34,346 nucleotides of DNA, from positions 1 to 34,346 of IMG/VR virus record IMGVR_UViG_3300042465_000944; one strand, 5' to 3'. The notes beneath the pieces were generated by a model that saw only the letters and a list, made by a program, of their open reading frames with translations, had not been told where the DNA came from and searched no databases. The stretch comes from a virus. Positions 32,384 to 33,959 of the stretch are shown here, one piece after another. How positions within the stretch are numbered: the first letter of the stretch is position 1; every line of letters begins with the position of its first letter. Both the position numbers and the translations under genes were made by a program.

Positions 32384-32676
32384 ACCAAGTAGCGAGGTAC
32401 ACCGATCCGTCTACCAGTTGGGCTGCTGCTGATTCTGCGAAGTCTTTAGCGGCTCAACACGCCACAATTATTATCCAAGCCTTATGCAAATATGGCCCGC
32501 AAGGGAAAGACGGTATAGCCACAATTACAGGACTTGATGGCAACCAGGTTGCTAGGCGTTTAAGTGAGTTAGAGCGCAACCATGAAATCCTGCTAACTGG
32601 TCGCAATGTGCAAAGCAAATCTGGCCGTGCCGAACGGGAATGGAAGGTTATGCCTAAACAAATGGATTTGATATGA
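32380..32676 (+). CDS. Winged-helix DNA-binding protein
   Basis: 98 residues, ATGA overlap. RYTDPSTSWAAADSAKSLAAQHATIIIQALCKYGPQGKDGIATITGLDGNQVARRLSELERNHEILLTGRNVQSKSGRAEREWKV is a complete winged helix (residues 24-90) of a kind common in phage early operons directly before methylases or replication genes. The wing carries R/K residues. It may be a regulator of the genes that follow. The start of the methyltransferase lies two bases after its stop. Confidence 0.75.
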   Translation: MNQVARYTDPSTSWAAADSAKSLAAQHATIIIQALCKYGPQGKDGIATITGLDGNQVARRLSELERNHEILLTGRNVQSKSGRAEREWKVMPKQMDLI

Positions 32677-32677
32677 C

Positions 32678-33265
32678 ATGGCTAATCAGTCAAGCCTTAA
32701 TGAACTTGCTTTGTTTGCAGGGGCAGGAGGAGGAATCCTTGGAGGAAAATTGCTTGGATGGCGAACTGTCTGCGCCGTTGAATGGGAACAGTACCCAGCA
32801 AGCGTATTGTGCGCCCGACAAAATGACAAAATTTTCCCGCCTTTCCCGGTATGGGATGACGTACAAACCTTTGACGGAAAACCTTGGGCAGGAATTGTTG
32901 ACGTTGTATCTGGAGGATTTCCATGCCAAGACATCTCAGTTGCAGGAAAAGGAGATGGGCTTGATGGAAAACGATCATCAATGTGGAGTCACATGGCACG
33001 GATTATTGGCGAAGTTCGACCCAAATACGCATTTGTGGAGAACAGTCCAATGCTCGTTACTAGAGGACTTGAACGAGTCCTTGCAGACCTTACCAGCATG
33101 GGGTATGACAGTCGGTGGGGAGTTATATCTGCGGCAGACGTTGGTGCAAACCATAAAAGAGAAAGAATCTGGATATTGGCTCACGCCAAGCACAGTGGAT
33201 ATACCAGTGAGGTCACAAGAAAGCATGGAGAAAAGGTTGGAATACCGTGCAAAGATAGGCCGTAA
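32678..33265 (+). CDS. C5 cytosine methyltransferase, catalytic domain only
   Basis: 195 residues. Motif I LFAGAGGGILGGKLLGW (residues 12-28, AdoMet), motif IV GGFPCQDIS (79-87, catalytic C83), motif VI ENS (121-123), and motif VIII RERIWILA (161-168) are all intact. Normal enzymes of this family have over 300 residues with a target-recognition domain and motifs IX-X; this frame stops before them. The missing C-terminal signature (RVDRLKAIGNGQVP) is present at 33885-33930 in the +1 frame, in an ORF that overlaps this one. Either the two polypeptides act together, or +1 frameshifting joins them. The start has only a weak ribosome site. Confidence 0.88.
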   Translation: MANQSSLNELALFAGAGGGILGGKLLGWRTVCAVEWEQYPASVLCARQNDKIFPPFPVWDDVQTFDGKPWAGIVDVVSGGFPCQDISVAGKGDGLDGKRSSMWSHMARIIGEVRPKYAFVENSPMLVTRGLERVLADLTSMGYDSRWGVISAADVGANHKRERIWILAHAKHSGYTSEVTRKHGEKVGIPCKDRP

Positions 33266-33959
33266 TGGAGTGGCAGCAGGATGTTTATCGGAACAAGTAA
33301 CTTGGAGTAAAGAAGGGTTGCCAATAAGTTATATGACAATAGATAAATTCCCAACGCCAAAAGCCCAAGATAGTAGACACGCATTAAATCGACACATTAA
33401 TTCTAAAGATAATCACTGGAAAAGCAATTTAGGAGAGGTTGTATCGGCTCAAATAAATGGTGGATATTTAAATCCAAATTGGGTAGAATGGTTGATGAAC
33501 TGGCCTATCACTTGGAGTAGTTTAAATGCTATTGACTCAAAAGAGTATCAACGCTGGAAGGAAACAAGCTCAAAAACTTTACAAAAATCTGACAAGATGC
33601 GAGAGATGTGGTGGGACAACGACCCTTCACAGGCATCATTTGGACAACAACCCAACAAACAATCAAAGCAGCAACATTGCAACGCTGTGCCACAAATGCC
33701 ACGGGACACTACATGCCAACGAGAGATGGAAAGATCATACGAAAGATCGAATTTGCCTTTATTGTGCAACAACATTTACTTATCTGAGAGCCAGGCAGAA
33801 AACATGCAGTCGGGAATGTGGGAACAAATTAGCGTGGATGAAACGAAGATTGTCCCAAGAACAGACAAAAACATAGTGGCTAGGGTGGACAGACTTAAAG
33901 CCATTGGAAATGGACAAGTCCCTTTATGTGCAGCAACTGCATGGGAGTTACTTAAATGA
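32823..33959 (+). CDS. Methylase-type protein overprinted on the methyltransferase (TRD and motif IX-X part)
   Basis: 378 residues from ATG 32823; the frame is open back to 32673, but that part is only the shifted reading of motif I. MTKFSRLSRYGMTYKPLTENLG…LYLEDFHAKTSQLQ, then WGMTVGGELYLR, YWLTPSTVD, LNPNWVEWLMNWPITW (about residues 216-231) and RVDRLKAIGNGQVPLCAATAWELL (about 355-378) match a family of phage methylase-like proteins. The C-terminal block is motif X of C5 methylases. Residues 1-147 share DNA with the catalytic domain in the other frame, and about 235-351 with the HNH gene. No ribosome site is clear at 32823. Confidence 0.72.
   Translation: MTKFSRLSRYGMTYKPLTENLGQELLTLYLEDFHAKTSQLQEKEMGLMENDHQCGVTWHGLLAKFDPNTHLWRTVQCSLLEDLNESLQTLPAWGMTVGGELYLRQTLVQTIKEKESGYWLTPSTVDIPVRSQESMEKRLEYRAKIGRNGVAAGCLSEQVTWSKEGLPISYMTIDKFPTPKAQDSRHALNRHINSKDNHWKSNLGEVVSAQINGGYLNPNWVEWLMNWPITWSSLNAIDSKEYQRWKETSSKTLQKSDKMREMWWDNDPSQASFGQQPNKQSKQQHCNAVPQMPRDTTCQREMERSYERSNLPLLCNNIYLSESQAENMQSGMWEQISVDETKIVPRTDKNIVARVDRLKAIGNGQVPLCAATAWELLK
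33526..33876 (+). CDS. HNH endonuclease nested in the methylase-type gene
   Basis: 116 residues in the third forward frame, with its own GGAG 8 nt before the ATG. INAGRKQAQKLYKNLTRCERCGG (C25, C28), LHRHHLDNNPTNNQSSNIATLCHKCHGTLH with H37-H38, N50, C55, C58-H59 and H63 is a full HNH site with zinc cysteines. A second zinc finger-like group C77-C80…C94-C98 (ICLYCATTF…KTCSRECG) follows. The same bases code for the end of the methylase-type protein. Possible role: homing or defence nuclease, or cutting partner of the methylase. Confidence 0.8.
   Translation: MLLTQKSINAGRKQAQKLYKNLTRCERCGGTTTLHRHHLDNNPTNNQSSNIATLCHKCHGTLHANERWKDHTKDRICLYCATTFTYLRARQKTCSRECGNKLAWMKRRLSQEQTKT

Follow-up and report, generated by a model that had tools for sequence, protein, structure and literature searches.

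Near the right end of the 34,346-base virus record IMGVR_UViG_3300042465_000944, which is taken here along its whole length and called the window, three forward reading frames overlap, and the question is whether all of them code for proteins and how a methylase and a nuclease came to share the same DNA. A previous sequence-only reading had described a C5-methyltransferase core (frame A), a methylase-type protein that ends in motif X (frame B) and an HNH nuclease (frame C), and the three open reading frames are present as described (Table 1). The explanation that we consider highly probable from the comparison with related loci is that the window codes for a C5-methyltransferase split into two overlapping subunits, alpha and beta, into which an HNH element, probably a homing one, has been inserted, moving motif X to beta.

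Table 1. Predicted features of the overlapping methylase and HNH locus in the window.
Feature	Positions	Strand	Description and evidence
Alpha subunit, frame A	32678..33265	+	195 aa; C5-methyltransferase motifs I-VIII; PF00145 3.7e-33, phrog_363 1.6e-56
Beta subunit, frame B (+1 to A)	32673..33959	+	428 aa; phrog_1008 8e-20
Order of regions in beta			N-terminal part lying over alpha; xTP repeats of recognition type; motif IX; linker overlapped by the HNH; motif X
Motif IX-like segment LNPNWVEWLMNWP, frame B	33468..33506	+	Near-invariant columns; same segment in frame in the single-chain Ailee enzyme
Inserted element, 373 nt (3n+1)	33506..33878	+	Anchor distances and clean gap in the L172/L001 alignment
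GGAG ribosome-binding site of HNH	33514..33517	+	8 nt before the HNH ATG; supplied by beta Trp-Ser codons
HNH endonuclease with second zinc group, frame C (+1 to B)	33526..33876	+	116 aa; phrog_1271 1.2e-9
Motif X and C-terminus RVDRLKAIGNGQVPLCAATAWELLK	33882..33956	+	Frame B in the window; frame A in HNH-less relatives

Frame A contains motifs I, IV, VI and VIII of C5-cytosine DNA methyltransferases in order within a single chain, and profile searches matched it to the Pfam DNA_methylase family and to a PHROG family, in agreement with the methyltransferase core proposed before. The two remaining motifs, IX and X (AIGNGQVP), are also encoded at this locus, both in frame B. Residues 52 to 289 of frame B match phrog_1008, and its tail matches the motif-X segments of methyltransferase PHROGs, which is what one would expect of the methylase-type protein that had been described. 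The extent of frame B, on the other hand, had to be revised. Its start had been placed at position 32823, giving 443 nt of double coding with frame A; however, the protein has a conserved N-terminus, M-S/T-W-L-(F/I/Y)-S-Q-A-L, which in the window lies at 32673, and 32823 is therefore too late, so that the overlap covers all of frame A, 588 nt. This N-terminus is written by two different DNA arrangements, NTGAATGAG, with the alpha start 4 nt earlier, and ATGNCATGG, with the beta start 5 nt earlier; the window has the second one, with the ATG of beta overlapping the stop of the preceding ORF.

The C-terminal half of beta contains repeated xTP segments and LNPxWVEWLMxWPxxW. The methylase of Gordonia phage Ailee is a single chain, read in one frame, that contains, in this order, the methylase core, LPTP repeats, the segment RLNAAFAEWMMMLPAGW and motif X, and the C-terminal half of beta can therefore be equated with the part of an ordinary enzyme that comprises the recognition region and motif IX, an assignment that, for motif IX, relies on this comparison with the Ailee protein. 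The +1 frame of the Ailee gene (L346:1417-3291) nevertheless also shows beta-like sequence, and contains an ORF annotated as an HNH or as a LAGLIDADG endonuclease, depending on the record. An AlphaFold model of beta alone gave no confident fold (pLDDT 53), and a sequence search of solved structures with beta found no relative.

To place the window among its relatives, we kept 80 loci retrieved from viral contigs via frame B and 80 via frame A, out of about 600 and 440 matches, respectively. In the loci that lack the HNH, A and B are mostly about 230 to 400 aa each and overlap along a median of 873 nt, their starts being a few bases apart in most loci and their ends within about 50 bases. Motif X is found in frame A in all of these except two deletion variants (L073 and L143), which were set aside; in both, the stretch after motif VIII is changed, alpha is shortened, frame B holds motif X, and there is no motif IX. 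Judging from these sequences, the HNH-less form appears to be a split enzyme in which A carries motifs I-VIII and X, while B, lying almost end to end over A, carries motif IX.

There is selection against stops in the second frame. Between the start of frame A and motif X, the +1 frame of 81 non-redundant HNH-less loci has 0 stops, where gene-by-gene shuffling of the synonymous codons of A predicts about 509, while the remaining frame has an excess of them (1590 versus 1360 expected, same loci). Selection bias derived from searching with frame B was rejected as an explanation, as a set of 78 phage loci selected by frame A only likewise had 0 stops in the 20,907 codons of its +1 frame. Differences without effect on the protein of A are biased towards conservative ones in B, both in motifs I-VIII (p 0.0012) and in the recognition region (p 0.0066), these p values being indicative only, since the sequences share ancestry; no conservative bias was seen among A-silent differences in the third frame. 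A further 65 bacterial loci (Pseudomonas, Acinetobacter, Nitrosomonas, Enterobacterales, Rhizobiales, and others) mostly retain the pair, and together with four phage loci they contain 25 stops versus 256 expected, all of them being loci selected by frame B.

With hundreds of viral stretches and these 65 bacterial loci matched, the split overlapping methylase appears to be widespread in phages and prophages. In PHROGs, this stretch of DNA is represented by two separate families, phrog_363 and phrog_1008, one for each frame, and the records examined often have only one frame annotated (MG592659.1:6637-7335, frame B, in a Vibrio phage, and OQ471969.1:54972-55886, frame A, in an Acinetobacter phage). 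One half of a common enzyme can therefore easily be overlooked.

Regarding frame C, the PHROG match is accompanied by a match to Pfam HNH with an E value of 0.0085, under the curated cut-off. Ten homologues have invariant Cys and His residues both at the HNH site and in the second zinc group, and GGAG precedes the ATG by 8 nt in every HNH-bearing locus in which the start is covered, which bears out the proposal of an HNH protein with a second zinc group and its own ribosome site. The AlphaFold model of the HNH protein was of middling quality (pLDDT 69), and the fold search with it retrieved no PDB chain at E<1, the nucleases Hpy99I and EcoKMcrA being among the weak matches. Across the HNH gene, the frame B of ten loci has 1 stop versus 64.1 expected with HNH codons shuffled, and the third frame has 50 versus 38 expected, so the 351 nt of double coding between B and the HNH gene hold as originally delimited; the single frame-B stop belongs to one locus (L088), an exception. 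Substitutions pile up at the third codon positions of the HNH gene (2055 versus 878 and 738 at the other two), and this concentration indicates that the HNH is the constrained protein of the overlap. Amino acid constraint on the part of beta overlapped by the HNH gene was tested for and not found. Thus, to judge by its sequence, beta seems to pass through the HNH gene as an open frame with no detectable amino acid conservation, as a linker would. Chance was rejected as the origin of the open frames by the two shuffle tests, A/B and B/HNH, in keeping with the earlier opinion that motifs of separate families could hardly all be accidental.

How the HNH gene came to lie there is apparent from the alignment of HNH-bearing and HNH-less loci, which shows a clean gap: TGGCC, with which motif IX ends, lies on one side of it, and the motif X segment begins on the other. 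TGGCC and the motif X anchor are 27 nt apart in each of the 70 measurable HNH-less loci and 400 nt apart in each of the ten complete HNH-bearing ones, and the insert therefore measures 373 nt. As this length is 3n+1, the downstream DNA once read in frame A, including motif X, is now read in B, and the former C-terminus of beta, TDLKPLEMDK, falls in frame C. In one locus (L007) and, in altered form, in another (L089), the HNH ORF continues past the insert into this old beta tail, fusing both. The three overlapping frames are arranged alike in a distant relative (L339:1692-3054), with an identity of about 36% both in A and in the HNH; its insert lies at the corresponding site and measures 547 nt, which is also 3n+1, and the coincidence of register suggests that the transfer of motif X may be needed for the element to be tolerated. 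A group I or II intron was considered and rejected, because the element had no Rfam match up to E 1 and the ORF takes 351 of its 373 nt. The window is a rarer form of the apparently split methylase, with its motifs partitioned as I-VIII in alpha and IX plus X in beta.

Putting these data together, we propose that alpha, translated from frame A, would provide the SAM-binding and catalytic motifs I-VIII, and beta, translated from frame B with a separate start, the recognition-type repeats and motif IX. The 373-nt HNH element would have entered a stretch that was already doubly coded, for motif IX in beta and for motif X in alpha, and its 3n+1 length would have shifted motif X into the beta frame. 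Beta would then be translated straight through the element, giving an alpha with I-VIII and a beta with IX, a linker and X, while the former alpha tail would be decaying, and the HNH would be translated in the third frame from its own GGAG and ATG. Most likely, the HNH would cut the uninterrupted IX/X site of other phages, and the element would be copied in. Phage methylases protect phage DNA against restriction, and we infer that the two subunits assemble into an active methylase with this function.

The HNH is patchily distributed among related methylases: 79 of the 88 in the tree of the methylase core lack it, and its presence requires 8 changes on that tree (7 of them forced by well-supported branches) versus 8.8 for shuffled labels, a scatter that would suit an element that homes or recombines. 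These data fit both homing and the exchange of a 3' cassette. The recombination explanation, by which the HNH would have spread with the 3' part of the gene without any active homing, is the one that survives best, and we regard it as a realistic if unlikely alternative. Recognition regions have plainly been exchanged, as the core of the window is 96% identical to that of the HNH-less locus L009, with about 370 nt fully identical, and the recognition region beyond is unrelated. The HNH of the window is 93% identical to that of L001, while their cores are 81.5% identical. Positions 33170 to 33510 form a mosaic, with the core identical to L009, the first repeat like L002 and the second repeat, together with the HNH, like L001, which suggests an exchange of recognition modules that are themselves dual coded in the relatives. 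However, the insertion site is fixed and highly conserved, and the nuclease residues are intact in all full-length copies, which favors a homing HNH without being decisive.

A second alternative, that the HNH-bearing loci are in decay, with the methylase inactivated by the insertion and the element surviving as a selfish one, seems improbable to us. The end of alpha does show signs of decay: in nine HNH-bearing loci, the stretch of frame A between motif VIII and the HNH has accumulated 32 stops, and beta of L088 has a stop as well. The alpha of the window ends at a stop (33263-33265) where the relative L002 has a Gln codon, and frame A of L001 retains KWWIFESKLGRMAYELAYHME, a remnant of the alpha C-terminus directly before the insert, and then has a stop at the insert. 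However, 67 stops were expected in that stretch of the nine loci (0 versus 300 expected in HNH-less loci), so the alpha tail is relaxed but not yet fully random. Against the death of the enzyme as a whole, motifs I-VIII, IX and X and an open beta frame across the HNH are retained in diverged copies, and in L029, in which the HNH is broken by the loss of 198 nt of the element, B is still joined in frame to motif X.

Still less probable is a single methylase gene whose two parts a programmed +1 frameshift would join (as the sequence-only reading had contemplated) or which a recent indel has broken, with frame B untranslated before about 33170. Looking at the window alone, this would be a natural interpretation, since A has I-VIII and B has IX and X and the joined product would be a complete enzyme, but A alone has I-VIII and X in the HNH-less relatives, and a recent indel would not recur at a single site in ten diverged loci. 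Moreover, beta has its own conserved start and is stop free from the first codons of A (0 stops versus 28.5 expected in the first 20 columns), and a frameshift is not needed, because a product of frameshifting downstream would not require B to be open there. Finally, the adjoining and overlapping of nuclease and methylase would suit a compact restriction-modification pair, and the sequence-only reading had also contemplated an overprinted pair of this kind, of which the overprinting turned out to be stronger than claimed, while the pairing itself is scarcely credible, as most related methylases lack the HNH, which sits as a separate insert at one fixed site interrupting the methylase gene, and a related arrangement elsewhere has been taken as a homing element (PMC11855218). 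The outcomes that the earlier reading had named as damaging to it, i.e., no homologues for the early part of frame B or for the HNH, or relatives in which the frames are broken by stops, were examined, and none of them refuted it.

We therefore return to a split methylase carrying an HNH that we infer to be a homing one. Seen in this way, the HNH form is a natural experiment in which an essential motif would have changed chains and a mobile gene persists in a dual-coded site, and it makes the need for each subunit, homing and triple-frame coding directly testable.

Among known systems, the small subunit of M.EcoHK31I is encoded in a +1 offset. The HNH-less relatives share the motif partition of this enzyme, a likeness of layout. 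M.EcoHK31I is a two-polypeptide C5-methyltransferase (PMC3404938, PMC3439449) in which alpha has I-VIII plus X and the smaller beta has only IX, with the recognition domain placed in the larger subunit (PMC3404938). Across the family studied here, in contrast, beta and alpha are of similar length and overlap almost completely, and beta carries the recognition-type repeats; the window additionally has motif X in beta and the inserted HNH. In M.AquI, also made of two polypeptides, alpha has I-VIII and beta has IX-X (PMC3404938), and the window has this same partition, compared by motif layout only; however, in the window it seems to stem from a mobile insertion, and beta overlaps alpha by 588 nt and the HNH by 351 nt. 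It seems to us rather likely, with less confidence than in the split enzyme itself, that a mobile HNH has adapted to a site dual coded for two subunits, with three frames usable, and that its 3n+1 length moves an essential motif while the enzyme survives, passing from an EcoHK31I-type to an AquI-type organization. In Kagunavirus coliphages such as K1G, a second ORF with a IX-like segment is annotated in the +1 frame, nested in the C5-methylase gene and without an HNH, and we found no split-enzyme analysis of this annotated pair in the literature searched. Likewise, no earlier description of the overlapping pair or of an HNH insertion in split C5 enzymes was found in the openly licensed literature.

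The system that comes closest is the ShiLan domain, in which a mycobacteriophage methylase has an insertion with a hidden, out-of-frame HNH and yet keeps its own frame open; the domain has a scattered distribution and no intron or intein features, the start of the insert resembles the sequence following the insertion site, and this arrangement was interpreted as a homing element (PMC11855218). The window resembles it in that the HNH is out of frame, the methylase frame B is open through the insert and the HNH occurs at one site in a disjunct set of loci, without an intron signal, while the resemblance at the insert start is a partial match of WSDLN to WTDLK. However, the ShiLan methylase, gp65, belongs to another class, and the two HNH proteins are weakly similar (26%, E 5e-4), short of what would identify homologous inserts. 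The ShiLan insertion is in frame, its target is singly coded and no ribosome site was found for it, whereas what is new at this locus is the dual-coded target, the 3n+1 length of the insert, the move of motif X from alpha to beta and the clear ribosome site, GGAG, before the HNH.
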